Origin: Bacillota bacterium
Lineage (GTDB): Bacteria; Bacillota; Clostridia; Lachnospirales; CAG-274
Reading direction: 5' to 3'
NCBI GenBank assembly: GCA_017627115.1
Contig: JAGAHK010000095.1
Location: forward strand, 1 to 17,461
Length of the DNA stretch: 17,461 nt
This document shows positions 2,102 to 16,666 of the stretch, piece after piece (the stretch's first letter is position 1; each line of letters opens with the position of its first letter). The notes under the pieces were generated by a model. It was not told the DNA's origin and made no database searches. It saw only the letters and a program-made list of their open reading frames with translations. A program made the translations under genes and the position numbers.

Positions 2102-5100
2102 ATGAAGAGATTTTTAAGTGCATTATTAAGTGTTCTTATTGCCGCAGGCAGTACAATGCCGAGCGTGTATGCGGCAGAAAACGAAATGCCGCAGCAGTAT
2201 GAGAGCGGTTACGAGGACAGCGGTTTATTTCCCGAAGTTATCCACATAAGCGGGGATAAGCTGAAAGGAATGGTGGAGGAGTACGACGGGGAGCATCCCG
2301 ATGAGGCAGGCGAAGAGTCCGCCGATGACGGCGAATTAAGTCCTTATGCCTCGGACAGCCCTGTCGGAGTGTTTGCCGACGAAGAAGCCCCCGATATTTT
2401 GGGCGAAGAATTTACCGAAGCACCGATAAGGGCTTATGCAGACACAAATACATATACCGAATATGTGTATATCCGCAGCGCGGCAGACCTTTTGGCGATA
2501 GACGGGCATGACGGCGGATATTACGAGCTTGCATCGGATATAGACCTAAAAGGCATGGAATGGCCGGGTATAGCCCTTACAAACGCAGTTTTTGACGGCA
2601 AGGGGCATTATATCTACAACCTTACGCAGACAAGCGAAAAGAGTACGGGTCTTTTCAGCAATTCGGACAATAAAGACGCAAATGTCTATATTGCAAATGT
2701 AAATTTGTCCGATATAAATATAAATGTCACAAAGTGTACGGGCACTTCCGTTATGGTCGGTGTGCTCGGCAGTGCGGGCATCACGCCCGAAAACTGCTAC
2801 GCAAGCGGAACTATAACCACAAATGTAACGGTAAAAAATCTTGCTGTCTATGTTTTTTCACAAGGCATCAACTGTGATTCAAGGGTAAATATAAATATCG
2901 GCGGCAGCTGTACAGACCCCGGTGGTTCTTGGTATGTGTACAATATGATACAATGCAGGCACAGCGGATATGAGGGCGATATAAAAATAACGGGCACTCA
3001 TGACCATACCCGTGTATACGGGCTTTACGGCTGTACGGATAAATCGGTATTTTACGGCGATATAACGCTCAACGCCGATATTGTTGAGGATGCTTATGTT
3101 GATTTAGATGGTCTGTTCAACTGCGATGATGCCGCATTTAAGGGCAATATCGAGTCAAGACCCGTATTTAAAGGAACCGGCGGAATGGTAACTGCCTCCG
3201 GATTGGACGGTACCGACTGCGATTTTACGGGTGATGTTTCGACATATTCAAGCGGAGATACGAGGGGCATACCGAATGCAAGTGCGGGCGGCGGTAAAAA
3301 CTGTACTTTTACGGGTGATGTAAGTGTTTATACAAACGGACAGTCGAACGGTTTTGTAATGGGTATCGGCGGTGACTCTTCCACAATGACGGGCGATATA
3401 TACGCAAATGTTAACGTTTACGGATCGAAATATGCTGTGTTCGATGTTTACGGGATCGGTCGTGCCAAAAATTGTGTGCTAAACGGCAATATCACGGGAA
3501 AAGGTACGGATGTACTGGTAACGCCCATACATGATTATGCGGAAAATTGTGCGGTAAACGGGGACAGCACAAGTACAGACAGAATCCACGGAATATACAA
3601 CGGCTGTAAAAACTGTACGATAAACGGAAACCTTTCGGGAGTAGGCAATATTAACGGTAATACGGCAGGAATTTCAAACGGAAGCACCGATTGTACGATA
3701 AACGGCTTTATAAGCGTGCAAAAAGGCGATATTTACGGTATAATGGGCGGCAGCGGCAATACCGTAAACGGCGATGTTATGACACAAAACGGCAAAGGTG
3801 TAGGCATATACAAATCATCGGGCTCTTATATATCGGGCATGATATCGGAAAAACAGGGCTATGAGCCGTTGAGCGTTACGGCTGCAAGTCCGTATATGGG
3901 TTACTTTGAGTGTCAGGGCTGTCATCAGAGGGTAGTCAGCGCGCGCAACCTGTTAGACGAAGTTCACTGCACAAGAGTGAGTTCATCGGGAACGGTGACC
4001 GAATATAAGTACAAAAAAATATACGAAATGAATTACAGCAAGGAAACGGGCGAGGGAAGCGACAGCGGCGAGCCGATAGAATTCCCGCCCGACCGGGAGA
4101 AATTCCCTTATACAATAAAACTTGTCAGCACCGAGAGCGGCGAGGTCATACCAAACGCCAAAATAAGCATTGACGGCAAAGAATACACCACAAACGAAAA
4201 CGGCATTATCTCCGTTTCGGAGGGCGAAACAAATGTTATGCTTACCGTAAAGATAGACGGCAATATAATGCTTGTAAACAGAAATTTCTATCCGGTCAAA
4301 AACCGTGAAAACATTGTGGAAGTGTGCGAGATAGCGGTCGATGTCGATCTTGGCGAAAGCGACGAGGCTCCGGGCAACCCGCCGACGGGAAATTTCAACG
4401 GCAAAAAATTCTCCATGTTCGACCTGCCCGCAAGTGTAAGCCTGCCAAAAGTCGGCAATATGCAGATGACGTATGACAAAAACCGCAAGGCATACAGAAT
4501 TCTTTTCGGCGATCTGAAAGGCATAAAGAATACGGGCAAGGATTTCAACAGAATGTTTATAGGCGTTCAGAACCTTGTGACAAATGCAAAGAACGGCCTG
4601 TTTTCCGATAAGGATTTTATGAAGCTGGTAAACACCCCGCAAAAGGGTGCGCTCGGTTTCAGCGGCAGCGGCAATGTCGTGGGCTATATAGAACTGCAAA
4701 AAACCAAGGATGATACAGTTGCAACGGGTGCGGTATTGATGAAATATACCGCAAGGGCTGAAAATACCATACCTTTTGCCGCAGCACCCGTATTTTTTGT
4801 TACATACGGCGTAACAGGCACTTTAGAAGCGGGCATCACACTTACCATGAGTACAACTAACATGGTAAACAAGTCCTTTGAACCGCACGGTATGGTGGCT
4901 ATGTCCGTTACACCCAATGTGGGTCTCGGTATAGGCATGAAAAAATTTGCATCGGCGGAAGTCGGCTTTGATGCAATATTAAGGGGACAGATAACATACC
5001 CGTTCCGCTCTGTACAGCAGGATGTATCGGCTTGGCTTACGGGCGAGTTTTATATTCTCGGCAGCATAATGGGCTTTGAGGGCAGGACGGCATGGACTTT

Positions 5101-7279
5101 GGGCAGATGGAAGCTATATCCGCTTGAAAGTGGCGTAAAAACCGCGGGCGATAAAGTTATAACTTTCAATGCCGATGAAATGACCCTCGCCGACAGAAGT
5201 TATCTTAAAAATAAAACACAGGACACAAGAGAGGGTACTGTAAAATCGAATATTTATCCCTACAGTTCAGTTAAATTCGGAAGCGTGGACGGCAAACGAA
5301 TGATGGTCTGGCTTGACGACGACCCGACAAGGGACGACCTTAACAGAACCGCTGTCTATTATTCAATAAAGAACGATGACGGAACATGGACAGAACCAAA
5401 GCAGGTGTATGATGACGGAACAGCCGATTATCAGTTTGACATTTTTGTAAGAAGCGGTATGACCTACATTGTATGGCAGAATGCCGTTGAAAAAGTCACG
5501 GGAAATTCGCCCGACGAGATAGCACCGAAGGTCGATCTCTATTACTCCGAGATAGGACAGTATGTCGGCAAGTACGATTGGGAAGAGCCTAAGGCCATCA
5601 CAACAAATAACAGCGATTACGAATATGACCCGAAGATAGCGGCTGACCGAAGCTTCGGACAATACATTATATGGAAACAAAATGACAAAAACACTCCTCT
5701 GGCAGGCTATGTTGATGTAAAGGAAAGCATTTACAAGTTACACAAGGGCTACAGCACGATGGAGCCTGTTGAGAAAGCTGCCGAAAACCTGCCTTATGTC
5801 TACAGTATGGATGTCAGCGCAACAGGCAATGTTGCTTTTGTGACAGACAGCGATAACGATATAACGACTGCGGGCAGTACGCTCTATTGCAAAGGCACTT
5901 ACACCGACAGCAGCAATACCGAGCACAAAATCGACGAAAGCTATTCATCCGAAAGCGATATAACGGGTCTTATGCACGGCAGCGCAAGCTTCTTCTTTAT
6001 GGAGGACAGCACATTAAAAACGATGAATGCCAATGGTATCGTAACGGATGTACACAGTTTTGATGCGGAGGTCACAAATCCCGTTATACTTACGGGCGGC
6101 ACGGACAGCGTAAGCTCCGTTTTATACGAAGTTCCGAACGGTTTTGATACTTCTGTATACTATGCAAAACTCAATTATTACACGGGCTGGTCTGAACCGC
6201 TGTTTGCGGGCAGCTTTGACGAAAAAGTCCGCTCGTGGGATGTTATAGAGTCAAAAGAAACGGAAATAGCGGCGGTAATGGCGGATATAGACGTTAAAAA
6301 CGACTACAATGCGGAAAGTCTGCCCGAAAACACCATAAAGGCAAACGAGATAAAGGAGACCGTAAGGCTTGCATACACAACTATCAAGCCTGTTGAGGAT
6401 ATAAGTGCGCTGTATCTTGACTGCACGGATGATATAAAACCCGGCTGCGGTGCTTCGTTTGAGGTAGGCGTTAAAAACGACACCCTCAGAGCGTTGGAAA
6501 AAATGCACCTGAAACTGACGGACGACAAGGGTAATGTACTGTTTGACAAGGATTGTTATCCCAAGGTATCGAGCGGCGGCACAGATACGCTGTACGCATC
6601 GGCGACTATCCCCGAAGATTTTACAAGGGGTACGATAACAGCCGAGGTATCGGTCGAGAACCTTGAAGAAAGCGACAGGACAAACAACCTTGTTTCCGAG
6701 ACTTACGGCGGTACGGATCTTGAACTTAAAGTTAGGGCAAATTCTATTCACAGAACGGGCTGTGTTGATGTGAATGTTCGGAATAACGGCAGTATTGCTG
6801 CAAAGAACGCTGTTATCAGCATAAAGAACGAAGCAGGCGATGTGATAGCAAAACAGACCGTTTCGGAGATACTTTCTTCCGTCAGTGAAAAAGTGAGCAT
6901 ACCCGTTCCCGAAACCTACAGCCGTCCGAAAGAGAAAATAAAGATTTATGCGGAAGTTGTTTCGGATGACGAGCTTAACGACTACGACAATGCGGGCTTC
7001 ACAGAAATAGAGGAATACATCGCTGAAGCCGACGACAGCAGTAAATTTGTATTCGGCGATGTTGACGGCAACGGAAAGGTAGAGGCAGGCGATGCGACAT
7101 ATATTCTGCAAAAAGCGTTGGTAAGCACGTTTGAACTGCCTTTGCAGAAAAAGACGAATGATTGGATGAGATATGCCGATGTGGACGGCAACGGTAAGAT
7201 AGAAGCAGGCGATGCGACATTCGTGCTGCAAAAAGCGTTGGTAAGTACATTTGAACTGCCTGTCGAAAAACTGAAATAA
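2102..7279 (+). CDS. Large secreted multidomain protein with twin dockerin
   Basis: A 1725-residue exported surface or docked protein of unknown role. Signal peptide at 1-24 (MKRFLSALLSVLIAAG, cleavage near VYA). Residues ~27-115 are acidic and probably disordered. Residues ~120-600 look like a parallel beta-helix, with repeated rungs such as NCTFTGDVSVYT, NCVLNGNITG and NCTINGNLSG every ~25-30 residues. A CQGC...HC cluster follows near 603-622, then a carboxypeptidase-regulatory-like or Ig-like fold (~668-740), a beta-rich region (~755-1010), and a BNR/sialidase-like propeller region (~1050-1400). Two CARDB-like domains (~1430-1640) lead to a type I dockerin (~1651-1725) with two DVDGNGKxEAGDAT calcium loops, each followed by QKALVSTFELP. 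Dockerins bind scaffoldin cohesins, so it probably joins a surface complex. No catalytic domain is recognised. It might bind or degrade polysaccharide, but that is inference from the beta-helix only. Confidence 0.85.
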   Translation: MKRFLSALLSVLIAAGSTMPSVYAAENEMPQQYESGYEDSGLFPEVIHISGDKLKGMVEEYDGEHPDEAGEESADDGELSPYASDSPVGVFADEEAPDILGEEFTEAPIRAYADTNTYTEYVYIRSAADLLAIDGHDGGYYELASDIDLKGMEWPGIALTNAVFDGKGHYIYNLTQTSEKSTGLFSNSDNKDANVYIANVNLSDININVTKCTGTSVMVGVLGSAGITPENCYASGTITTNVTVKNLAVYVFSQGINCDSRVNINIGGSCTDPGGSWYVYNMIQCRHSGYEGDIKITGTHDHTRVYGLYGCTDKSVFYGDITLNADIVEDAYVDLDGLFNCDDAAFKGNIESRPVFKGTGGMVTASGLDGTDCDFTGDVSTYSSGDTRGIPNASAGGGKNCTFTGDVSVYTNGQSNGFVMGIGGDSSTMTGDIYANVNVYGSKYAVFDVYGIGRAKNCVLNGNITGKGTDVLVTPIHDYAENCAVNGDSTSTDRIHGIYNGCKNCTINGNLSGVGNINGNTAGISNGSTDCTINGFISVQKGDIYGIMGGSGNTVNGDVMTQNGKGVGIYKSSGSYISGMISEKQGYEPLSVTAASPYMGYFECQGCHQRVVSARNLLDEVHCTRVSSSGTVTEYKYKKIYEMNYSKETGEGSDSGEPIEFPPDREKFPYTIKLVSTESGEVIPNAKISIDGKEYTTNENGIISVSEGETNVMLTVKIDGNIMLVNRNFYPVKNRENIVEVCEIAVDVDLGESDEAPGNPPTGNFNGKKFSMFDLPASVSLPKVGNMQMTYDKNRKAYRILFGDLKGIKNTGKDFNRMFIGVQNLVTNAKNGLFSDKDFMKLVNTPQKGALGFSGSGNVVGYIELQKTKDDTVATGAVLMKYTARAENTIPFAAAPVFFVTYGVTGTLEAGITLTMSTTNMVNKSFEPHGMVAMSVTPNVGLGIGMKKFASAEVGFDAILRGQITYPFRSVQQDVSAWLTGEFYILGSIMGFEGRTAWTLGRWKLYPLESGVKTAGDKVITFNADEMTLADRSYLKNKTQDTREGTVKSNIYPYSSVKFGSVDGKRMMVWLDDDPTRDDLNRTAVYYSIKNDDGTWTEPKQVYDDGTADYQFDIFVRSGMTYIVWQNAVEKVTGNSPDEIAPKVDLYYSEIGQYVGKYDWEEPKAITTNNSDYEYDPKIAADRSFGQYIIWKQNDKNTPLAGYVDVKESIYKLHKGYSTMEPVEKAAENLPYVYSMDVSATGNVAFVTDSDNDITTAGSTLYCKGTYTDSSNTEHKIDESYSSESDITGLMHGSASFFFMEDSTLKTMNANGIVTDVHSFDAEVTNPVILTGGTDSVSSVLYEVPNGFDTSVYYAKLNYYTGWSEPLFAGSFDEKVRSWDVIESKETEIAAVMADIDVKNDYNAESLPENTIKANEIKETVRLAYTTIKPVEDISALYLDCTDDIKPGCGASFEVGVKNDTLRALEKMHLKLTDDKGNVLFDKDCYPKVSSGGTDTLYASATIPEDFTRGTITAEVSVENLEESDRTNNLVSETYGGTDLELKVRANSIHRTGCVDVNVRNNGSIAAKNAVISIKNEAGDVIAKQTVSEILSSVSEKVSIPVPETYSRPKEKIKIYAEVVSDDELNDYDNAGFTEIEEYIAEADDSSKFVFGDVDGNGKVEAGDATYILQKALVSTFELPLQKKTNDWMRYADVDGNGKIEAGDATFVLQKALVSTFELPVEKLK
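7058..7150 (+). repeat. Dockerin direct repeat, first copy
   Basis: A 93-nt segment encoding DVDGNGKVEAGDAT and QKALVSTFELP. It repeats at 7178-7270 with a 120-nt (40-codon) period and long identical stretches, including GCAGGCGATGCGACAT and CTGCAAAAAGCGTTGGTAAG. This is the normal duplicated F-hand arrangement of a dockerin, here with unusually high DNA identity. Confidence 0.85.
7178..7270 (+). repeat. Dockerin direct repeat, second copy
   Basis: Second F-hand copy, encoding DVDGNGKIEAGDAT and QKALVSTFELP. The near-identity with 7058-7150 means both helices could contact a cohesin in the same way (dual-binding mode known for type I dockerins). Confidence 0.85.
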
Positions 7280-7305
7280 ACCATATAATAATGGCGGTCA
7301 AAAAG

Positions 7306-7361
7306 AAACCCCTCAGTCACGGCTAAAGCCGTGCCGGCTCCCCTGAACAAGGGGAGCCAAG
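7306..7361. repeat. Intergenic palindromic repeat, short form
   Basis: A 56-bp unit of the AAACCCCTCAGTC...GGGGAGCCAAG type, made of two perfect hairpins: CACGGCT-AA-AGCCGTG (7318-7333) and GGCTCCCCT-GAACA-AGGGGAGCC (7336-7358). It sits 27 bp after the stop of the large gene. It lacks a T run, so it is not a typical terminator. Confidence 0.8.
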
Positions 7362-7454
7362 CGTAGGCACACTTCAATGACCGAGGGACTTCGGATCAAA
7401 GCCTGCGGCGCTAAAAATACTTAAAAAAATCATTTGACAGGAACTAAACAACAT

Positions 7455-7510
7455 AAGGGACTGAAACATTGAGTATTATCATATTCTTAATGTGACAGCC
7501 CCTTTTGTAT
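7455..7510. terminator. Bidirectional terminator between convergent genes
   Basis: AAGGGACTG (7455-7463) pairs with CAGCCCCTT (7496-7504) with one wobble, extended by ACATT/AATGT inside. On the plus strand it is followed by TTGTATTTTTATTTATT, serving the 2102 gene. On the minus strand it follows the stop codon of the gene ending at 7513 and would end the cobalamin-controlled unit, with a weaker T tract. Confidence 0.65.
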
Positions 7511-7512
7511 TT

Positions 7513-9975
7513 TTATTTATTCAAAAGTTCTTTTTCGATGTATTCATAAAGCAGGGAGCAGGTCTCGGCGCGCGTTATCGTGCGCTTTGGTTCAAACCTG
7601 CCGTTTGAGCCGTTTATTATGCCTTTTTCGGCAAAATATGCGGCGGCGGTATGGGCGTAGGCGGAAATATCGTTATCGTCCGAAAAATCCGTTTTGTCAT
7701 ATATGGGCTTTCCGTCCGTGAGCCTGTACAGTATTGCTGCCGCATCCTGCCTTGTTATCGGGGCGGAAGGCGCAAAATGTGTTTGGTCGATTCCGTATAC
7801 CGTTTTGTTTTCCGCTGCCCAGGTTATTGCTTCATAATACCACTGAGTTTTTACTACATCTTCAAAGGGACAGTTTTTGCCCTCGCCGCCGAATATCCTG
7901 TGCAGCATTGTCACAAATTCGGCGCGCGTTACACTGTCATCGGGGCAGAAAAGTCCGTTTTGCCTGCCGTTTACAATGCCCGATGCGTGCAGACATTCAA
8001 CGGGGTAAAAATACCATACGCCCGTCTCGACATCTTTGAAATAATTATCAAAAACGGTCGTTTCCTCCGTGTATTCGGCGGCTGCCGTGGTCTGTGCGCT
8101 CTGTGCACTCTGCGTAGTGGTCTCGGTCGCTATCTCGTTTGAGGAGTCCGAGCGCATATCGGTCTTTGTGTAATCGTCCGAGTACAGCAGAATAAGCGTG
8201 TCGCCGTCATCAAGAGTACATCCGCGCATGGCGGTCTGCACAAATACGCCGTTTTTGGTATACATCCAGCCGCTGTTTATGCCGTTGTCGAATTCCGCAA
8301 GCTTTACACCGTCGGGCGAGGTTATCTCCGAGATATAGCCGTTTTGGTGTATCACATATTTAAAGTCGTTTTTTTCAAGGGCATCAAGCACAAGATCTTC
8401 GGCCGAACTGCCTTTTTTTATTTTATAGGTATTGTTTTTGAGCCATACCGTGCTTGCGGTGTGTGCATCTGCACCGTGGGGCGTATCGCCTATTATCTCA
8501 AAGGAGACATTTATATATTCCGCCGCATACGAACCTCCGCCGCCTCCCGAATGTGAGGATGAATGTGACGGCGTTTGTGAAGCTGTTTCGGAAGCGGTTT
8601 CGGAAGCTGTTTGTGAAGCTGTTTGTGAAGTTGTTTCGGAAGCGGTTTCCGAAATCATTTCCGTTGTTATTTCCGAAATTGTTTCCGCAGGGTCATCGGG
8701 TGTTTTGTCGGGCGAAAAAGCTATTATCCACCCCGAATCGTTCTGATAGTACAAAACCCCGTCCCGGTCGATATTTATGCGGTTTATGCAGTACTGTCCG
8801 TATTCCTCGGACGGCGTGAAAAACTCGGTCAGCTCAAAGCCGTTTTTGCTGTCTTTCAGGCGCATTGCCTTGCCCGGGGTGTAATTGCAGGTGAAATAGG
8901 CATATACCGCACCCTCGCTTGCAAAAACCAAAGGCCGTGCCTGCACATTGCCCAAAACATCGAATTTTGCAAGCCTTTCAAGCGAAAAGGCATCAAAAAC
9001 ACAGAAACTGCCGTTTGTGTAGCCGCCGTCCGAACCGCCGACATAGACCCTGCCGCCGATCATAACGGGCTCGCAGGAGGAGTCTGCGCAGAAAGCCGTG
9101 CTTACGGCATTGCCGAAACCGTTTTCGGTAACTTCCGCGCGCCACAGTCTGCCGTCCTTTGTGGTAAAATATGCGTTTTTGCCGTCAATGCTTACGGTCG
9201 AACGCATATTTGCACCTGTTTGCAGGCTGTCCTTTATCCTGCCGCTTGCTTTGTCGGCAAGGTAGACCGTGCCGTCCTCGCTGCCGAATATTATATTTTC
9301 GCCGCAGAACGCCGCACCCGTGCCGTAAAAGCCTATGCTTGAAACACCGCTTTCGCTTGGTGCAAACTGCCATACAAAGGGCTTGACCTCGTATTCGTTT
9401 GAAGGGTCCGCGTCAAGGGTGTCAAGGCAGTAATAACTGCCCGTGCCGTAGTTTTTGTTCATCACGACCGTGCCTGCATATATATGCCCGTTATCGCAGC
9501 TTATAGGCGAAAGCCCCTGACCGTAGTCGCCGCTTACGGGTGTTTCGCTTATCCACAGCGATTTCAGGGTATCGGCGGAAAAAGCCTGCACAATGCCGTT
9601 TTTAAGCTGCACAAAAAGCGTGCCGTTTTCCTGCGCCATATAATAGGTATAGCCTATCGTGCCGTAAAGGTTCGCCGTGTTCACGGTTTTGCCCGTAAAA
9701 CGGTCTATCTTGTAGATTTTTCTGTCCGCTGCGGTGTAGATATGGTTTTTGTACACAACACAGCTGCAAAAGCCGCTCATTATGCTTTTTTTTATTTTGT
9801 TTGTCCATTTTATTGCCGCATTTTCACCCGTGTCTGCAAAAAAGCCCCCCGAAGAGACTGTTGCATCGTTTGCATAGACTGTCGCTTCGGCGGGGTCATT
9901 CTGCGCAGCTGCCGTTATGTTTAAAAGTATGGTGAAAATAAGCAGCAGTGCGATCTTTTTATTCATATTGGTCAT
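7513..9975 (-). CDS. SLH-anchored PQQ-like propeller protein with DUF4430 domain
   Basis: An 820-residue exported protein, second gene of the cobalamin-riboswitch unit. Signal peptide ~1-25. Residues ~55-422 form a PQQ-type beta-propeller with repeats such as DGTVYLADKASG and DGRLWRAEV. A Ser/Thr/Glu linker (~425-482) is built from SETAS/SQTAS repeats and ends in a Gly run. A DUF4430 transcobalamin-like domain lies at ~487-602 (SGWMYTKNG, then DDGDTLILLYSDDY). After a second linker come three SLH domains (~646-813) with SVTRAEF, PITRQDA and TITRAET motifs, which in this family bind the pyruvylated wall polymer. ATG 9975 is only 2 nt past the upstream gene's TAA, suggesting translational coupling; ATG 9966 is an alternative, and neither has a strong binding site of its own. 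The likely role is surface binding of cobalamin or a corrinoid complex, inferred from the domain and riboswitch. The propeller ligand is unknown. Confidence 0.85.
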   Translation of the reverse strand: MTNMNKKIALLLIFTILLNITAAAQNDPAEATVYANDATVSSGGFFADTGENAAIKWTNKIKKSIMSGFCSCVVYKNHIYTAADRKIYKIDRFTGKTVNTANLYGTIGYTYYMAQENGTLFVQLKNGIVQAFSADTLKSLWISETPVSGDYGQGLSPISCDNGHIYAGTVVMNKNYGTGSYYCLDTLDADPSNEYEVKPFVWQFAPSESGVSSIGFYGTGAAFCGENIIFGSEDGTVYLADKASGRIKDSLQTGANMRSTVSIDGKNAYFTTKDGRLWRAEVTENGFGNAVSTAFCADSSCEPVMIGGRVYVGGSDGGYTNGSFCVFDAFSLERLAKFDVLGNVQARPLVFASEGAVYAYFTCNYTPGKAMRLKDSKNGFELTEFFTPSEEYGQYCINRINIDRDGVLYYQNDSGWIIAFSPDKTPDDPAETISEITTEMISETASETTSQTASQTASETASETASQTPSHSSSHSGGGGGSYAAEYINVSFEIIGDTPHGADAHTASTVWLKNNTYKIKKGSSAEDLVLDALEKNDFKYVIHQNGYISEITSPDGVKLAEFDNGINSGWMYTKNGVFVQTAMRGCTLDDGDTLILLYSDDYTKTDMRSDSSNEIATETTTQSAQSAQTTAAAEYTEETTVFDNYFKDVETGVWYFYPVECLHASGIVNGRQNGLFCPDDSVTRAEFVTMLHRIFGGEGKNCPFEDVVKTQWYYEAITWAAENKTVYGIDQTHFAPSAPITRQDAAAILYRLTDGKPIYDKTDFSDDNDISAYAHTAAAYFAEKGIINGSNGRFEPKRTITRAETCSLLYEYIEKELLNK
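8566..8652 (-). repeat. 15-nt tandem coding repeats in the linker
   Basis: On the minus strand, degenerate 15-nt units encode SETAS, SQTAS and variants (residues ~442-470 of the SLH protein). They form a flexible, potentially O-glycosylated spacer between propeller and DUF4430. Repeat number could vary by slippage without changing frame. Confidence 0.75.
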
Positions 9976-9977
9976 TC

Positions 9978-11420
9978 TTACGCTTCACAGGGGAGAGGGA
10001 AGGTGCTTACAAGTACTTTCTGCATAACAAAGGCTGCATCCTCCGCATCCACACTGCCGTTTTGGTTGATGTCGATATATGCTGTATCATCGGCAGGTGC
10101 GGGGAAAGTGCTTACAAGCGCTTTCTGGAGTATGTTTGCGGCATCGTCGGCAAGGACCTTGCCGTCAAGGTTATAATCACCGTAAAGCGGTTTTTCTGTT
10201 GGCTCAAGCTCAACATCTATGGTTATATCGTCATTTGTTACCTCAAAGTTGTCCGCTGCCGTAAAATAGCCGTCAAGCTCCGCAGTATACAGATAATTGC
10301 CCGGTAAAAGCGAATAGCCGCCCCAGGGGTTTTCCGCGATCTCTTCGCCCGTGCCCGCATTGGCAACAGTGACTTTTGCGCTCGGAGTTGTGTTTATGGT
10401 TACGGTATAGCCGTAGAATTCGCGGTAGTCGTCATAGTAGTGGAAAACTATCTCGTCGCCTGCCTGTACCTTGTAATCACGCAGCGCAACGGAGGGTGAC
10501 TCGCCGTTTACGGTATATATCCAGCCGCTTTTGTCGCCGTTTGTAAATTCGCCTACGGTCTCGCCGCCTGCTGTTTTAACTGCGGAGATATAGCCGTACT
10601 GTTCATTGTAAACGATCTCGCCGCCAATGGATTTTATAAGCTCTGTTACATATTTTTCGGCTGTGCCGCCGTCTTCGGGTGTGAATTCGCTGCCTGCCCA
10701 GAGAGTGTATGCGCTGTGTGCGCCCGCTTCGTGTACGTTATCGCCGTATATCTTTGCGGTAACTACATCCGTTTTTTTCTCCAATACCGCATTTATGACA
10801 GCATCGTCATCAACTATCTCAAAGCTGCCCTCGAGAGTTTTGTAGCCGAGTTTTTTTACGGTATATGTATACTTGCCTTTCGGGAGGGAATAACCCCAGC
10901 CATAGTCAATTATTTCATTGCCCGTGCCGTCAAATATCTTAACTTCCGCATCATCGGGGGTCACGCTGATTTTTGCGCCGTAGCCGTAGATGTCGCGGTA
11001 ATCGTCAATATAATATACCTCGACCGCATCGTTGTCCGCAAGCTGGTAATCGGCAAGACCCACAGAGGGAGCAGTGCCGTTTACATTGTACATCCAGCCG
11101 CCGTAGCCGACATTGCTCTTGCCCGGAAGAGTGATGCCCTTATCGGAAGTGATGGAGTAAAGGTAGTTTGAGTCGTCATAGTAAACATAGCTTAAACCGC
11201 CTTTTTCAAGTGCGTTAAAAAGTGCGTCTTTTGCCGTCATACCGTTGGTAAAATCGCAGTCTGTTTCAAGCCATGTCTCGTATGCCGTGTGCTGTTTGGG
11301 CTCGTGATCGCTGTCGCCCGTTATCTTTACGCTTACCGCCGCAAATACGCTTGTTGACATCATAAAGGCCGTTATAACGCCCAAAGTGCCCGCAAGCAGC
11401 TTTTTGTTGAATTTTTTCAT
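9978..11420 (-). CDS. Cobalamin-riboswitch-controlled double DUF4430 protein with dockerin
   Basis: A 480-residue exported protein. Signal peptide 1-28 (ends STSVFA). DUF4430 copy 1 at ~29-145 (GGWMYNVNG at 107-115, then ADNDAVEVYYIDDY), a PEGA-like beta domain at ~148-215, DUF4430 copy 2 at ~219-335 (SGWIYTVNG, then AGDEIVFHYYDDY), a second PEGA-like domain at ~337-406, and a dockerin at ~412-476 (DYNLDGKVLADDA and DINQNGSVDAEDA, each followed by QKALVSTF or QKVLVSTF). DUF4430 (PF14478) is described as transcobalamin-like. With the cobalamin riboswitch directly upstream, a role in binding extracellular B12 or another corrinoid is likely but not shown. The dockerin implies attachment to a cohesin protein. 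The start is ATG 11420, placed by AAGGAGG 7 nt upstream; a TTG directly before it is rejected. The protein looks like an internal duplication of a DUF4430-PEGA unit. Confidence 0.88.
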   Translation of the reverse strand: MKKFNKKLLAGTLGVITAFMMSTSVFAAVSVKITGDSDHEPKQHTAYETWLETDCDFTNGMTAKDALFNALEKGGLSYVYYDDSNYLYSITSDKGITLPGKSNVGYGGWMYNVNGTAPSVGLADYQLADNDAVEVYYIDDYRDIYGYGAKISVTPDDAEVKIFDGTGNEIIDYGWGYSLPKGKYTYTVKKLGYKTLEGSFEIVDDDAVINAVLEKKTDVVTAKIYGDNVHEAGAHSAYTLWAGSEFTPEDGGTAEKYVTELIKSIGGEIVYNEQYGYISAVKTAGGETVGEFTNGDKSGWIYTVNGESPSVALRDYKVQAGDEIVFHYYDDYREFYGYTVTINTTPSAKVTVANAGTGEEIAENPWGGYSLLPGNYLYTAELDGYFTAADNFEVTNDDITIDVELEPTEKPLYGDYNLDGKVLADDAANILQKALVSTFPAPADDTAYIDINQNGSVDAEDAAFVMQKVLVSTFPLPCEA

Positions 11421-11427
11421 CAAAATT

Positions 11428-11434
11428 CCTCCTT
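11428..11434 (-). promoter_or_regulatory. Ribosome binding site AAGGAGG
   Basis: Consensus AAGGAGG on the minus strand, 7 nt before ATG 11420. It fixes that start. It lies far below the riboswitch aptamer and is not visibly paired with it. Confidence 0.85.
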
Positions 11435-11485
11435 ATTGTTTTTTGCATTTTAACTGCTTTGCACGCTCCCGTCCAAGCGCGCATC

Positions 11486-11543
11486 CGAAAACGCGGTATA
11501 AAAATATCAAAATATTTTCCGACCGCTGTTTTTATACTTTTCG
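11486..11543 (-). promoter_or_regulatory. Riboswitch expression platform: anti-P1 versus terminator-like hairpin
   Basis: Read on the minus strand. The 3' strand of P1 and the following bases (CGAAAA-GTATAAAAA, 11543-11529) can instead pair with TTTTTATAC (11504-11496) and TTTTCG (11491-11486), a 15-bp stem with a 4-nt bulge. A competing hairpin at 11526-11493 has GCGGT/ACCGC and AAAATA/TATTTT stems and is followed by GTTTTC. The two share bases 11496-11497, so they exclude one another. With P1 closed by ligand, the second hairpin is free to form. A transcription-terminating OFF switch is inferred; the short T tract makes this uncertain. Confidence 0.5.
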
Positions 11544-11728
11544 CGGCAGGTCTTCTGACTTGCGGTTCGACCTCGGCGGCGCCTTCTCACAATGCAAAAA
11601 CAAAGTCGGTAAGCAAATTGTTTTCGCTTCGCAATGGTATATGCCGCTTTGTAGCCGCTTACAGCAGGGACGGGGCTGTATCGGTCTTTCACCGATTTCC
11701 CTTTTCACGTTTGCCGCACCGCGAAAAA
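11537..11728 (-). promoter_or_regulatory. Cobalamin (B12) riboswitch aptamer
   Basis: On the minus strand the hallmark elements appear in order: GGGAA, a GGTGAAAGACC hairpin, CAGCCCC followed by CTGCTGTAAGCGG, then GAGAAGGC, and finally the B12 box CAAGTCAGAAGACCTGCC (11562-11545). The outer P1 stem is perfect over 10 bp including one wobble: TTTTTCGCGG (11728-11719) with CCGCGAAAAG (11546-11537). The family binds cobalamins and usually represses when bound. It controls the two genes reading down to 7513. Confidence 0.93.
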
Positions 11729-11740
11729 CAGTATAACAAA

Positions 11741-11769
11741 ATTTTAATGTTTTTTTGCTGAAATGTCAA
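11741..11769 (-). promoter_or_regulatory. Promoter of the cobalamin-controlled unit
   Basis: On the minus strand TTGACA (11769-11764) and TAAAAT (11746-11741) are separated by exactly 17 bp, a near-consensus housekeeping promoter. Transcription would start near 11734, a few bases before the riboswitch P1 stem. Confidence 0.8.
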
Positions 11770-11808
11770 TAAAAAAATCGTTTTGGGGGTGCTTTTTTGT
11801 TTATGCTC

Positions 11809-11960
11809 GTTGTCGCGCAGCGACAACATCGCCGGAGAAAAGCAGGCTTTTCTCCGGAAATGCAGTCACACTGCGCGCCGCCTGCGGCGTCACTTGGTGC
11901 CTGTAAGGAAGAAAAAACAAGTTTTTTCTCCTCGGCGAAAACGCGGTTTCCGCCTGCGGA
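11809..11960. repeat. Cluster of tandem perfect hairpins, non-coding
   Basis: Successive inverted repeats: GTTGTCG-CGCAG-CGACAAC (11809-11827), CCGGAGAAAAG-CAGG-CTTTTCTCCGG (11832-11857), CGCCG-CCTG-CGGCG (11876-11889), GAAAAAAC-AA-GTTTTTTC (11911-11928), and CCG-CCTG-CGG (11951-11960). None has a proper terminator T run. The open reading frame across it looks spurious (Arg/Lys-rich, no family resemblance). It could be a structured RNA, a repeat relic or an extragenic palindrome cluster. Confidence 0.6.
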
Positions 11961-12003
11961 TTAAAGTCTGCGACACTTTGAGTTACTTTAAAAAAGAAAA
12001 GAC

Positions 12004-12194
12004 GTTGCATTAGTCTTGCCTCCCCTTTAGCGTAAGCGGTTAGGGGAGGGGGACCGCGCGCAGCGTGGTGGAGGGGTTTATTTGCAGCAACTTTAGTGTT
12101 GTATAACGGTGAGCATCAACAATCGTAAACCCCTCAGTCAGCCTGCGGCTGCCAGCTCCCCTGATCGCTGCGCTAAAGGGGAGCCAAGACTAAT
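12004..12194. mobile_element. MITE-like element, copy 2 (191 bp)
   Basis: The left end (12004-12025, starting GTTGCATTAGTCTTG) is identical to that of the copy at 1568. The right end GGGGAGCCAAGACTAAT (12178-12194) is complementary to most of it, but the last bases of the inverted repeat are missing. The left unit, the ~50-nt middle and the right unit are all homologous to copy 1, which carries an extra hairpin segment in its right half. It lies between the hairpin cluster and the purC promoter. Confidence 0.65.
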
Positions 12195-12269
12195 TTCTTT
12201 TTATTCACACCCCTAAAACATATATACAAGAAAAATTGATCGGGAAACAGAAATAAATTTAAAAAACAA

Positions 12270-12298
12270 TTGCTTATTATGGCAAAATTTGATATAGT
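12270..12298 (+). promoter_or_regulatory. purC promoter
   Basis: TTGCTT (12270-12275), a 17-bp spacer, then TATAGT (12293-12298) preceded by TGa, an extended -10. The leader is ~50 nt, AT-rich, and holds no recognisable purine riboswitch. A GAGGT ribosome binding site lies at 12344-12348. Confidence 0.65.
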
Positions 12299-12356
12299 TA
12301 TTATATATGTAGTTTTTTACAAAACAAAAATTTTAATAAAAGCGAGGTAATAAATC

Positions 12357-13079
12357 ATGGCAGAAAAAAAGGAACTTCTTTACGAGGGCAAGGCAAAAAA
12401 GGTATACGCAACAGACGACCCCAATCTTTGCATTTTTGAGTACAAGGATGACGCTACGGCTTTCAACGGCATCAAAAAAGGCTCATTTGAGGGCAAGGGC
12501 GAGATAAACAACCAGATGGCAAACTTTATCTTCCGTCTGCTTGAAAAAAAGGGCATCAAGACACATATGGTAGAGGAACTTTCAAAGCGCGAAACGCTTG
12601 TTAAGAAAGTTGACATCATCCCCCTTGAAGTTATTGTAAGAAATATCGCAGCAGGCAGCTTTTCAAAGCGTTACGGCGTTGAGGAGGGCACACCTTTCAA
12701 GGAACCTACACTTGAATTCAGCTACAAAAACGACGAACTCGGCGACCCCCTTATCAACGACTACCACGCACTTGCGCTTGGCATTGCAACAAGAGAAGAT
12801 ATAAAAACTATCGCAAATATCGCATTTTCCGTTAACGATGCGCTTAAAGAGATATTCAAAAACATCGGTATCAAGCTTGTTGACTTCAAGATAGAAGTGG
12901 GCAGAACGGCAGAGGGCGAAATTGTGCTTGCAGACGAAATAAGCCCCGATACCTGCCGCCTTTGGGATGCGGAAACAAACAAAAAGCTCGATAAAGATCA
13001 ATTCCGCCGCGATCTCGGCGAATTTGCGGAGGTTTACCACGAAGTTTGGGCAAGGTTGAATGATTATTATAAGAAATAA
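12357..13079 (+). CDS. purC: Phosphoribosylaminoimidazole-succinocarboxamide synthase (PurC)
   Basis: A 240-residue cytoplasmic SAICAR synthetase. It ligates CAIR and L-aspartate with ATP hydrolysis to give SAICAR in de novo purine synthesis. The N-terminal [11 protein letters not shown] strand, the first signature [14 protein letters not shown] and the second signature LVDFKIEVG are all present, as is the [12 protein letters not shown] segment of the active site. The length is typical for bacterial single-domain PurC. ATG 12357 has GAGGT 8 nt upstream. It is separate from other pur genes here. No terminator is seen in the 32 bp before the next gene, so transcription may continue into the exported-protein cluster. 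Confidence 0.97.
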
Positions 13080-13111
13080 TCTGCTTATTCTGATTTTCAA
13101 AGGGTGATTTG

Positions 13112-14866
13112 ATGAAATTCAAAAAACTTTTGCTTACATTGCTTATCAGCACTTTATTTTCCGTCTCGGTCTATGCCGAAGAGACTCCTGTCGGTATGCC
13201 CGACAACGAGCCGAAATATGTCTTCAAAACCCTCGAACGCCGTCCTGTCGGTGACAAAGGACATTATTATGTCAAATACTTGAGATATACCAAAGACAAT
13301 GCCGAGTGCGGACAAGGATATATTGTCGAAGACGGAAGCGGCAAAGACCTGTATACACTGATATGCACTCCGGGCGAGGGTAATTCGTTGTGGGTGATAA
13401 ATGACAAAGCCGAGATTTACGGCATACGCTATGACGGCGATATAAACCACAATTACGACGACGCTTACGCTTTTATGAATGATGACCTCAAAACATTCGG
13501 AGATATCAACTGCGAATTTTCGAGCAATTATCCCACTTGTGTAGATTTCGGGGATTTTTGCCTGCCTTTGGCAACTTCAAAAGACCCGATGAAAGACGGT
13601 GTATTCTATGACCCCGACGGAAACATTATCAATGATATAGGCGCATATCTCAAAGAACACGGTAAAAAGCTGTCCGACGGCAAATATTACAACAAAAGAG
13701 CCAACAACAGAGGCGCACGCGATATACGCACTTTGGGCGAGACCCCAAACCCGAAAGATTTTGTCTTTTCAGAGCGTAATTACCGCGCCGTAGTCGGCAG
13801 CGGCACGGGCGAAACATGGGTGGAAGACAAAGACGGCACAGACCTTACCGACATTATAGACGGCGAGATCTCCGTCCTGCATTACGGCTGTGATGTGTAT
13901 ATAATAAATTATCCAAACGGCGAAACGGAACTTATGACAGCCGATTTTGAGCCGTTCGGCAGAGGTGTGTTTGACGTAAATGTGCTTGATTTTGACGGTA
14001 CATACCTTATTGCCGAAAGCAAAAGCGGCGCTTCGCCCTATGATGCGGAAAGTACCGTATATTATGACTCGATGGGAGCGCCTGTTCCTGCTGACAAGAT
14101 AAAGGAAATAACGGGAAAAGACCTTGAAGACGGCGTTGTTTCCGTAGATACCGAGCCTGTACTCGACCCGCGTGGGCGCACGGAGCATTACACGAAATTT
14201 ATCCCCGAAGAACAGAGATTTATTTTTAATGAAAAGCAGTACCCGCGCAGAAAAATAGACGGTTCGGAGCTTTATATAGCAGGCGACCGCAAGGATAAAG
14301 ATGTCGGTGAGTGGCTTGAAAAAGAGGACGGCACGGACGTTTCTCTTGCAACTGCGGCAATAGACTGTGTATGCGGTGAGCATAATGTTTTCCGCGTGCT
14401 GACAGAGGTTGACGGCGAATATTTCTACAGCGGCTATCAAGACGGTATAGTCTGGTTCGGGCGCAGGGGAAAATACTTCTACTGCCTACACTGCGGTGAT
14501 GTGCATATTCTTGCAAGCAGTACGGAGGATGTTTCGCCTTTTGATACGGAACACGTTTCGTATTTTATGACCGATGATACCGATAAAAAAATAGACGATA
14601 TAAACGCATATTTAGCCAAACAGGGATTAAAACTCACGGACTTTACCGCAGTTTCCGAAACAGAAACGCATGATGCGCCCATAACGGGCGAAAATCCCGC
14701 GCTGAACAAGGAAGAAAGCACCAATAACAATTCTCTTGAAGTATTCTCTCCGCCCGAGCATATTTTCACCAAACCCCAACTTATAGGCATGGGCGCATGT
14801 GGTGTGATTCTGGCGGGAGTGTTTGTAAAAAACGTGATCAAGGAAATAAAAAAAGGGTTAAAATAA
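13112..14866 (+). CDS. Exported membrane-anchored protein with three copies of an unknown module
   Basis: A 584-residue protein of no family I recognise. Signal peptide 1-22 (LLISTLFSVSVYA), three related beta-rich modules at ~37-195, ~218-345 and ~368-513, a polar linker, and one C-terminal membrane segment (~556-573) with a Lys-rich tail, giving an outside-facing anchored protein. Each module starts with an R/Y..VG...Y/W segment leading to a WVEDKDGTDL or WLEKEDGTDV type motif. Copies 1 and 3 end with an IxDIxAYLxxxGxKLxD motif, and copy 2 has a diverged version. Copy 3 has CVC (419-421) and CLHC (458-461), a possible disulfide or metal cluster. ATG 13112 is chosen over TTG 13109 because AAAGGGTG precedes it. 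It lies 32 bp after purC and 4 bp before its paralogue. The role is unknown; surface recognition or envelope sensing is conjecture. Confidence 0.8.
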   Translation: MKFKKLLLTLLISTLFSVSVYAEETPVGMPDNEPKYVFKTLERRPVGDKGHYYVKYLRYTKDNAECGQGYIVEDGSGKDLYTLICTPGEGNSLWVINDKAEIYGIRYDGDINHNYDDAYAFMNDDLKTFGDINCEFSSNYPTCVDFGDFCLPLATSKDPMKDGVFYDPDGNIINDIGAYLKEHGKKLSDGKYYNKRANNRGARDIRTLGETPNPKDFVFSERNYRAVVGSGTGETWVEDKDGTDLTDIIDGEISVLHYGCDVYIINYPNGETELMTADFEPFGRGVFDVNVLDFDGTYLIAESKSGASPYDAESTVYYDSMGAPVPADKIKEITGKDLEDGVVSVDTEPVLDPRGRTEHYTKFIPEEQRFIFNEKQYPRRKIDGSELYIAGDRKDKDVGEWLEKEDGTDVSLATAAIDCVCGEHNVFRVLTEVDGEYFYSGYQDGIVWFGRRGKYFYCLHCGDVHILASSTEDVSPFDTEHVSYFMTDDTDKKIDDINAYLAKQGLKLTDFTAVSETETHDAPITGENPALNKEESTNNNSLEVFSPPEHIFTKPQLIGMGACGVILAGVFVKNVIKEIKKGLK

Positions 14867-14870
14867 TCTT

Positions 14871-15581
14871 ATGATGAAGTACAGAATAATGTTACTTACA
14901 TTATTATTAATTTCCCTGCTTAACGTATCGGCATATGCCGGGACAGACAAACGCGGTGCGCATGATCTTGTAGTTCAATACAGCGGCAGTGATGAAAATA
15001 TACAAAGGTACAAGAGGGAAGCTGTGGGAGACCGCAATATTTACCTTGTAGGCGATGGCGGAAAAGGCTCGGAAGGCAAATGGCTTGAGGACGAGGACGG
15101 AAATGATATTTTCGGCGGATATGAGAATATGTGGGTGATGGATGCCGAAAGCGGACTCTTCGGCGCAGATCTGAGCCATACATACGCTGTTGTGCATTGT
15201 GATGAAAATAACAATTGCAATATTATATTGAACAACTGCAATTATCCTTTCTGCATAAAATTTCGTGACCGTGCCGTTATTGCCGTTGCAAACTCCTATA
15301 GCGCCGTTCAGGATCCGAGAAATACCGATGATTTTTCGTATTTCAACAGCGTCGGGGGTTCGATAAACCTTTACGAATATCTTTCCGTGTTTAATATCGA
15401 CCCGACAGAGGGTGTTTTTTACGATGCTTTCATTACACAGGAATATATACCATTTGCGGAAGAACGGAAAATAGAACCTGTGAAATTGTTTCTCGCAGTG
15501 CTTGCTGTTTTTGCGGCGATCGCCGTTTACGGGGTCTCGGTTTTGCTGATTTTCGGAGAAAAGAACAAAAAAGCGGAGTAA
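14871..15581 (+). CDS. Exported membrane-anchored protein, single-module paralogue
   Basis: A 236-residue member of the family that starts at 13112. Signal peptide 1-23 (LLLISLLNVSAYA), one module at ~45-185 (REAVGDRNIYLVG, WLEDEDGNDIFGG, then SINLYEYLSVFNIDPTEGVF) and a C-terminal membrane helix (~204-228) with a charged tail EKNKKAE. It begins 4 nt after the preceding stop, indicating co-transcription and probable coupling; its own binding site is poor. ATG 14874 is an equally possible start. Function is unknown. Confidence 0.8.
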   Translation: MMKYRIMLLTLLLISLLNVSAYAGTDKRGAHDLVVQYSGSDENIQRYKREAVGDRNIYLVGDGGKGSEGKWLEDEDGNDIFGGYENMWVMDAESGLFGADLSHTYAVVHCDENNNCNIILNNCNYPFCIKFRDRAVIAVANSYSAVQDPRNTDDFSYFNSVGGSINLYEYLSVFNIDPTEGVFYDAFITQEYIPFAEERKIEPVKLFLAVLAVFAAIAVYGVSVLLIFGEKNKKAE

Positions 15582-15617
15582 TAATACACAGTATGTCACT
15601 TGCAAAGGAGCGATAAT

Positions 15618-15788
15618 ATGGACAGATTTGAAATAATTTACCGCGAAAACACTCCTATGGGGAAAATGCAGATAAAAATACTTGTGGATAAGGAAACGGG
15701 CGTTAATTACCTGTTCACTTCCGACGACTGCGGTGCAGGCATAACACCGCTTCTGGACAGTGACGGCAGACCCGTGATAACAAAATGA
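15618..15788 (+). CDS. Small DUF6440-family protein
   Basis: A 56-residue protein beginning MDRFEIIYRENT. The central VDKETGVNYLFTSDDC and GITPLLDSDGRPVI segments match what I recall of the DUF6440 family, small Firmicutes proteins of unknown function. It has no signal peptide or membrane segment, unlike its neighbours, so it is likely cytoplasmic. AAAGGAG (15604-15610) 7 nt before ATG 15618 sets the start and rejects an upstream TTG at 15600. It is embedded in the exported-protein cluster on the same strand, 36 bp after one member and 20 bp before the next. Confidence 0.8.
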   Translation: MDRFEIIYRENTPMGKMQIKILVDKETGVNYLFTSDDCGAGITPLLDSDGRPVITK

Positions 15789-15808
15789 GTTTTTTGGAGT
15801 GGTAAGAT

Positions 15809-16666
15809 ATGAAACTGAAAAAGTCGATATTTGCTCTGCTGCTAATATCTGTGTTTTCGGCAAATATTTATGTGGAAACGGCGCAGGGCGGGACAGATGC
15901 TGTTATAAGAGATTTCAGGGAGCAGCATTATCCTGCCGATAAGGTCGAGGGGCATTTTTTCAATCTTGTTGAATTTGAGAATTTTGAGTTTATTGCGGTC
16001 ACGGACTATTATAAAAATTTTCTTGATGATACGACAAAAGCCGACAGCAACGAATATTTTGAGTTAAACGGCAGCAAAATACCCGACATTTACGTTTATA
16101 TCACAGACCACGGTGTGGAACCGTCCGAGGGGAAATATCATAATTACACGGCGCAGAGGGATATGCCGTTTGAGCCTATACCGCCCGTGACAGGTGCTAT
16201 GGATCTGTTTCCCGATATTGAAGGCGTTTCGCAACCGCAGCCGCGTTACCGCGTGGGCGAAAGCAATCACTATCTTGTCGGCAGTAATGTTCCCGAAACG
16301 GGTATCGGAATGTTCGTCGAGGACGAGGACGGCACCGACAGGCTCGGGGCAGTGCCGTCATATATAGGCGGCTCGGGTCAAGCGGTATGGGTGACCTGCG
16401 AATATCCCGAAATGTATGTTGTTCATTACGAGTTCCAACATCCCGCGGGACAGCTTTATGAAGAATACAATGGCGGTTTTGTCAAAGTCGGCAACGGAGA
16501 GACTTACGGTGGAAAACAGCCCGTACTGCTCGGAAGTACTCGCTCCGAAGATATTGAAACAAAAATAATAGATAAAGTGTCAAAGATCAATCTGAAGCAT
16601 GCCGCCTTTGCGGCTGTAATTGCGGTGATCATAGGGCTTTGGCTGAAAAAGAAAATGCAGGATTGA
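15809..16666 (+). CDS. Exported membrane-anchored protein with rearranged half-modules
   Basis: A 285-residue member of the tandem family. Signal peptide ~1-26, C-terminal membrane helix (~263-279) and KKKMQD tail. Unusually, residues ~56-112 match the end of a module (NGSKIPDIYVYITDHGVEPS) and residues ~145-228 match the beginning of one (YRVGESNHYLVGS, then MFVEDEDGTDRLG), so the halves appear in swapped order. This suggests loss of the outer halves from a two-module ancestor, or a permutation. GGAGT at 15796-15800 precedes ATG 15809, within a stretch nearly identical to that before the next gene. Function is unknown. Confidence 0.8.
   Translation: MKLKKSIFALLLISVFSANIYVETAQGGTDAVIRDFREQHYPADKVEGHFFNLVEFENFEFIAVTDYYKNFLDDTTKADSNEYFELNGSKIPDIYVYITDHGVEPSEGKYHNYTAQRDMPFEPIPPVTGAMDLFPDIEGVSQPQPRYRVGESNHYLVGSNVPETGIGMFVEDEDGTDRLGAVPSYIGGSGQAVWVTCEYPEMYVVHYEFQHPAGQLYEEYNGGFVKVGNGETYGGKQPVLLGSTRSEDIETKIIDKVSKINLKHAAFAAVIAVIIGLWLKKKMQD

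Follow-up and report, generated by a model that had tools for sequence, protein, structure and literature searches.

The two-gene operon on the minus strand at positions 11769-7513 of contig JAGAHK010000095.1 (assembly GCA_017627115.1, a Bacillota bacterium of the CAG-274 lineage in the Clostridia) probably encodes the part of a system for acquiring corrinoids (vitamin B12) that lies at the cell surface and is under riboswitch control; domains of the DUF4430 family would be the putative corrinoid binders. The whole contig, 17,461 nucleotides long, is called the window below. What was computed directly comprises the riboswitch, the unit of two genes, the domains for anchoring, the predicted fold of DUF4430, which is like that of the transcobalamin beta domain, and the arrangement of riboswitch and DUF4430 that recurs across the class, in some loci together with an energy-coupling factor (ECF) transporter.

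The Operon and Its Riboswitch

The operon starts with a cobalamin riboswitch, followed by a gene encoding a DUF4430/dockerin protein (P0001) and a gene encoding a propeller/DUF4430/SLH protein (P0002). The features are, all on the minus strand:

11741..11769, sigma-70-like promoter TTGACA-17-TAAAAT (consensus scan, 11/12 matches)
11528..11738, cobalamin riboswitch aptamer, complete (RF00174, 93.4 bits, E 1.7e-22, gathering 31.5; counterpart in the sister genome G005)
11421..11527, expression platform with predicted hairpins, then an AGGAGG ribosome-binding site before the ATG of gene 1 (sequence; RNA fold)
9978..11420, P0001 (open reading frame, Pfam)
10983..11336, DUF4430 domain 1 of P0001 (Pfam)
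10410..10763, DUF4430 domain 2 of P0001, transcobalamin beta-domain-like predicted fold (AlphaFold2, Foldseek)
10011..10184, type I dockerin of P0001 (Dockerin_1, PF00404, 32.7 bits, cut-off 22.9)
7513..9975, P0002 (open reading frame, Pfam; starts 2 nucleotides past the P0001 stop codon)
8701..9858, PQQ/BamB-like beta-propeller of P0002, approximate limits (PQQ_2, PF13360, 42.1 bits, cut-off 27.6)
8161..8514, DUF4430 domain of P0002 (PF14478, 35.6 bits, cut-off 23.8)
7516..8043, three SLH domains, limits approximate, presumably anchoring P0002 in the cell wall (PF00395, 97.8 bits in three stretches)

All model positions 1-189 of the aptamer are covered, and it is the sole RF00174 match in the window genome, here called G000 (2.24 Mb, 86% complete, 457 contigs). 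The promoter-like site stands directly upstream of the aptamer and is the best of 10 such sites in 7200-12400. As shuffled sequence gives 6.7 sites (standard deviation 2.6), only its place and quality count and not the number of sites, and the consensus match is by itself not evidence of function. The leader at 11540-11400 is predicted to fold with -35.1 kcal/mol (z -4.26); the predicted hairpins are compatible with control by a terminator as well as by access to the ribosome-binding site, which the folds do not distinguish. The ATG of gene 1 lies at 11420 and its stop codon ends at 9978. With only 2 nucleotides between this stop codon and gene 2, it is very likely that both genes share a single transcript.

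P0001 matches DUF4430 (PF14478) with 77.5 bits in two stretches. It consists of a signal-peptide-like N-terminus, a DUF4430 domain, a PEGA-like stretch, the second DUF4430 domain, another PEGA-like stretch and the dockerin; the PEGA/CarboxypepD_reg-like stretches score under their Pfam cut-offs. P0002 has a signal-peptide-like N-terminus followed by the propeller, a Ser/Thr/Glu-rich linker, its single DUF4430 domain, a second linker and the three SLH domains. Both signal-peptide-like starts were judged by eye, without a predictor. The linker ahead of DUF4430 in P0002 is encoded by direct repeats with a spacing of 12 nucleotides (window 8543-8662). An earlier note, made from the letters of this DNA, had described the B12 riboswitch, the domains of both proteins, their order and coordinates and a common transcript, and all of this agrees with the present searches.

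The Predicted Fold of DUF4430

In transcobalamin an alpha and a beta domain jointly enclose cobalamin. The structure of DUF4430 was modeled with AlphaFold2 from an alignment of 60 sequences headed by domain 2 of P0001, and the model (predicted local distance difference test score, pLDDT, 93.5; predicted template modeling score 0.86) was compared with the PDB using Foldseek. Ranks 1-19 of the 116 matches are taken by transcobalamin (14 rows), intrinsic factor (two), haptocorrin (one) and a Ruminococcus gnavus protein, 3u7z (two chains), with probabilities of 0.98-1.00, E-values from 1.4e-3 to 3.5e-2 and template modeling scores (query) of 0.45-0.63. At rank 20 the probability falls to 0.06. The likeness to the beta domain of transcobalamin and intrinsic factor that the earlier note had pointed to is thus borne out by the model: DUF4430 has the predicted fold of the C-terminal beta domain of transcobalamin. 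That a DUF4430 domain is found at the C-terminus of TCN proteins is already in print (PMC4350170).

DUF4430, Toroid and ECF Transporter Genes on Another Contig

Another contig of the window genome, C257, carries four genes in one direction, encoding an alpha/alpha-toroid protein, a DUF4430 protein, EcfT and a fusion of two ATPases and an S part. Judged by eye, the toroid protein has a signal-peptide-like start and the DUF4430 protein a hydrophobic N-terminal stretch. The reading frame of the ECF fusion is open. Up to E 1, the sole sequence match of the S part in the PDB is 6FNP_A (CbrT), at E 3e-5; 6FNP is the B12 transporter ECF-CbrT of Lactobacillus delbrueckii (PMC5997447). The toroid protein gives a model with a pLDDT of 94.3, and transcobalamin accounts for 11 of the top 30 Foldseek rows.

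Linkage of Riboswitch and DUF4430 Across the Class

The survey of the class comprised 293 genomes (at least 90% completeness was requested, plus G000). DUF4430 is found in 121 of them at E <= 0.001, and in 119 the match is over the cut-off. Riboswitches were searched for, with stricter Infernal filters, in the first 55 of these 121 genomes by table order; RF00174 is present in 50, with 116 matches in total. Positions of DUF4430 were taken from its best 150 matches, which come from 93 genomes; nine of the 55 have none among them, so that the linkage counts are lower bounds. At least 39 of the 116 riboswitches, in 33 of the 55 genomes, have one of these DUF4430 matches at most 8 kb downstream on their own strand, while the upstream control gives one. 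Before the three rows of the window were added, the count was 38 of 116 riboswitches in 32 genomes vs. 0.33 expected, a figure that assumes uniform placement and rounded genome sizes and leaves the window rows out. Counted from the other side, a riboswitch stands no more than 12 kb upstream of 56 of the 82 listed DUF4430 matches; these 56 belong to 35 of the 46 genomes with listed matches. Among genomes with a single riboswitch, DUF4430 follows it within 8 kb in 18 of 29.

Twenty linked loci were hand-picked for reading, in stretches of 8.5 to 15 kb, and the following fractions hold for linked loci only. DUF4430 is present in all 20; a relative of the C257 toroid is encoded in 14, EcfT in at least 11, a related S part in at least 10 and all four in at least eight. 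Ten large proteins picked from these loci all have SLH domains according to Pfam, and seven of them DUF4430. One of the ten, encoded behind a riboswitch in the genome G012, combines DUF4430 and SLH with a match to PF01122, "Eukaryotic cobalamin-binding protein" (51.4 bits). Thirteen of the 34 toroid-bearing open reading frames in the fetched loci also contain DUF4430; the 34 include frames truncated at locus edges and frames contributed in pairs by a single genome. The toroid precedes DUF4430 in 12 of these 13, the exception being one frame in locus L084 where DUF4430 comes first. Animal transcobalamin has the same order, with the toroid first and the beta domain after it.

The form with a propeller is present only in G000 and G005 among the fetched loci. 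A scan of genome contigs with the propeller-DUF4430 region of P0002 found one record alone, CANRCU010000032.1 of G005 (uncultured Clostridia bacterium isolate Lapin-026__bin61, where "Lapin" hints at a rabbit as source); the scan used two narrow peptide patterns, may not have included the window genome and is a poor gauge of rarity. The operon is not the isolated system that it had been taken for; it looks like a rare form of a cassette that is common among its relatives. The earlier proposal of a surface corrinoid trap, in which binding is inferred, gains support from the fold search, from the class-wide linkage and from the CbrT-like ECF transporter that the genome encodes along with DUF4430 and toroid proteins, and whose counterpart in a sister genome borders on the riboswitch.

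The Locus in Sister Genomes

Six genomes of the genus, G000 to G005, were compared. DUF4430 is found in two of them, G000 and G005, and RF00174 in four. The order in G005 is the end of an ECF gene, the riboswitch, a DUF4430-dockerin gene and a propeller-DUF4430-SLH gene. The proteins are related to those of the window, with 50% identity over the P0002 region and a phmmer E-value of 3e-109 for P0001. The ECF gene of G005 shows a frame break and appears to be split over two contigs. In the numbering of the C257 protein, the other contig ends at a residue aligned to 254 and the one with the riboswitch starts at 326; it is therefore most likely that the toroid, DUF4430 and EcfT genes of G005 adjoin the riboswitch locus. 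The ECF operon on C257 has no riboswitch of its own; the counterpart of its ECF gene in G005 ends directly before one.

In G002 and G004, which have no DUF4430, a single riboswitch is followed by an operon encoding CbiK, a binding protein, FecCD and an ABC protein (Pfam was run on G002 only; the assignment in G004 comes from its open reading frames and the FecCD match). The binding protein of G002 has a weak match to IsdE (haem). G000 is without a FecCD match and G005 shows a partial one (27.5 bits); the match is strong in G003, which has none to RF00174. With the DUF4430 unit in some genomes and a BtuFCD-type operon in others, the riboswitch position in the genus holds alternative uptake systems.

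The CbiK cobalt chelatase encoded next to the ABC importer (locus L016, 5558-10807, and locus L015, 1896-7174; Pfam on L016 only) has a lipoprotein-like start as judged by eye. A protein without a Pfam match sits between CbiK and the importer genes.

Points Against Corrinoid Capture and Other Explanations

A number of results weigh against corrinoid capture. None of the 116 Foldseek matches of DUF4430 domain 2 reaches E 0.001, and the sequence matches of DUF4430 to transcobalamin in the PDB are not significant: a profile of 60 domains finds transcobalamin-2 first, with an E-value of 0.033 that is suggestive at most, and for this reason the structure comparison was used instead. A comparison based on seven sequences was dropped, with rotavirus VP4 first (E 0.14) and transcobalamin-2 fifth (E 0.26). 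Pfam finds no alpha/alpha-toroid, the counterpart of the alpha domain, in P0001 or P0002; as a speculation, the propeller of P0002 could fill the role of that domain in enclosing the corrinoid. The model of the C257 toroid fits farnesyltransferase and terpene cyclases about equally well, and the toroid sequence profile finds cyclases and alpha-2-macroglobulin in the PDB and no transcobalamin up to E 1. The toroid is therefore consistent with a transcobalamin alpha domain but no proof of one, and its profile and model were set aside as specific evidence since the fit is at superfamily level only. The Pfam families to which the C257 S part is assigned are called "ECF-type riboflavin transporter" (PF07155, 35.6 bits) and ECF_trnsprt (PF12822, 33.2 bits), the genome search finds no RF00174 riboswitch for the C257 operon, and EcfT or a related S part was not seen in nine of the 20 linked loci within the stretches read.

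The search for B12-dependent proteins points in the same direction. The B12-binding domain PF02310 was not found in G000 or in G005 (90% complete). TIGR00276 (QueG-type) matches five of the six genomes, two of them over the cut-off and G005 across two frames; it has no match in the 86% complete G000, in which EutBC, PduCDE and a CobA-type adenosyltransferase were not searched for. NrdJ and the PF01923 adenosyltransferase were matched in none of the six genomes and do not discriminate between them. As an observation in its own right, the two genomes with DUF4430 lack a match to PF02310, and the four without DUF4430 (G001-G004) have one. Finally, cohesin was not found in the incomplete G000, though it was matched in all five other genomes of the genus. 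The earlier suggestion that the system is docked is for this reason only partly backed; the dockerin of P0001 stands, and its partner was not found in G000.

Part of these results would fit DUF4430 proteins that bind another ligand, such as haem or another tetrapyrrole, cobalt, riboflavin, a protein or a glycan, with riboswitch control arising because the uptake supports or replaces B12-dependent metabolism. The fold neighbor 3u7z is titled a putative metal binding protein, the Pfam name of the S part refers to riboflavin transporters, the riboswitch operon of G002 contains CbiK and the protein resembling IsdE, and the B12-linked proteins searched for were not found in G000. However, those fold neighbors of DUF4430 that have a known ligand are cobalamin carriers, for the S part CbrT is the sole PDB match up to E 1, and the published CbrT assay showed no competition by hemin (PMC5997447). 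We regard another ligand as unlikely.

The missing B12-dependent proteins might also mean that the system is decaying in this lineage, or that it only withholds B12 from competitors in a host that has lost its main B12-dependent enzymes. PF02310 in neither of the two DUF4430-bearing genomes vs. all four others, TIGR00276 without a match in G000 and with one broken across two frames in G005, and the frame break in the ECF gene of G005 are in line with this. On the other hand, both window genes are open frames with relatives in G005, the ECF frame on C257 is open as well, and both genomes are incomplete metagenome-assembled genomes in which the three further B12-linked enzymes named above were not searched for. 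Decay or mere withholding is considered quite improbable. That ordinary S-layer or cellulosome-type surface proteins stand behind the riboswitch by chance, as a dockerin in the neighboring protein P0003 and the cohesins of the genus might suggest, is rejected as extremely improbable given 39 riboswitch-DUF4430 neighbors vs. about 0.33 expected, one on the control side and a gene order preserved in G005.

Other Features of the Window

A MITE-like element (miniature inverted-repeat transposable element) with terminal 24-nucleotide inverted repeats ATTAGTCTTGCCTCCCCTTTAGCG occupies positions 12009-12194, directly upstream of the riboswitch promoter. A second copy lies at 1503-1702, and a 13-nucleotide motif from the element is found at 7306-7318. 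On the strand opposite to the operon, positions 2102-7279 encode a protein of 1725 amino acids that ends in a dockerin (PF00404, 32.6 bits), its sole Pfam match over the cut-off; a 94-nucleotide direct repeat in the DNA codes for the repeats of this dockerin. Three genes in a row at 13109-16666 encode products without a Pfam match over the cut-off, and two of these genes have a 29-nucleotide repeat in common.

A Possible Route of Corrinoid Uptake

If the operon does serve corrinoid capture, the following sequence of events may be envisaged. At low intracellular adenosylcobalamin the riboswitch would permit expression of the operon. P0002 would then be placed on the cell wall by its SLH domains, while P0001 would either be tethered to the cell surface through its dockerin, for which a cohesin partner was not found in G000, or be released. 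The DUF4430 domains of both proteins would bind corrinoids and hand them to the DUF4430 and toroid proteins encoded on C257, from which they would pass on to the S part resembling CbrT, for import by the ECF transporter.

More tentatively, the cassettes may belong to a broad Clostridia family of transcobalamin-like B12 capture systems, whose toroid and DUF4430 modules, sited at the S-layer or the membrane, feed CbrT-type ECF transporters, and which would bear on the origin of the animal carriers. In the lineage of the window the propeller would have replaced the toroid and would close on DUF4430 around the corrinoid, and the dockerin-borne pair of DUF4430 domains would serve as a detachable trap. 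We consider this wider picture possible but doubtful.

Bacteria contend for corrinoids among themselves, and those of the gut with their host as well. A widespread system in Clostridia sharing the fold of the animal carriers would, if true, give DUF4430 a testable function, and would raise the question of whether animal transcobalamins derive from bacterial proteins of this kind.

Comparison with Known B12 Uptake Systems

BtuFCD(B) and CbrT are the known B12 uptake families according to a survey of gut genomes (PMC6593275). The tie between DUF4430 and TCN proteins (PMC4350170), B12 transport of the CbrT type, which is established for CbrT (PMC5997447), and surface capture by BtuG (PMC6143338) were known before. 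In the open literature no account of DUF4430 or toroid proteins of bacteria forming a B12 system was found, subscription papers being outside the search.

The BtuFCD-type of ABC uptake is represented in the genus by G002 and G004, where a binding protein, the FecCD permease and an ATPase are encoded behind the only riboswitch; the two genomes with DUF4430 differ in having no FecCD match (G000) or a partial one (G005). Bacteroides BtuG resembles the proposed system in that B12 is captured at the exposed surface ahead of the transporter, and BtuG2 is a seven-bladed propeller (PMC6143338), while P0002 also has a propeller match. However, BtuG, a lipoprotein, has BtuB as its partner, whereas P0002 has SLH domains, DUF4430 and a propeller match of the PQQ/BamB type; the likeness drawn here is one of fold class.

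The transporter on C257 shares with ECF-CbrT (CbrUVT) the S part matching 6FNP as well as ECF ATPases and EcfT. It differs in that the two ATPases and the S part form one fusion and that DUF4430 and toroid genes lie beside it; surface feeder proteins are not mentioned in the passages on CbrT consulted here.

DUF4430 is predicted to fold like the C-terminal beta domain of transcobalamin, intrinsic factor and haptocorrin, and the placing of the toroid ahead of DUF4430 in 12 of the 13 combined open reading frames likewise recalls transcobalamin. Unlike transcobalamin, P0001 and P0002 lack an alpha domain and carry a dockerin, a propeller and SLH domains in addition to DUF4430, and the toroid of the window genome is a separate protein encoded on C257.

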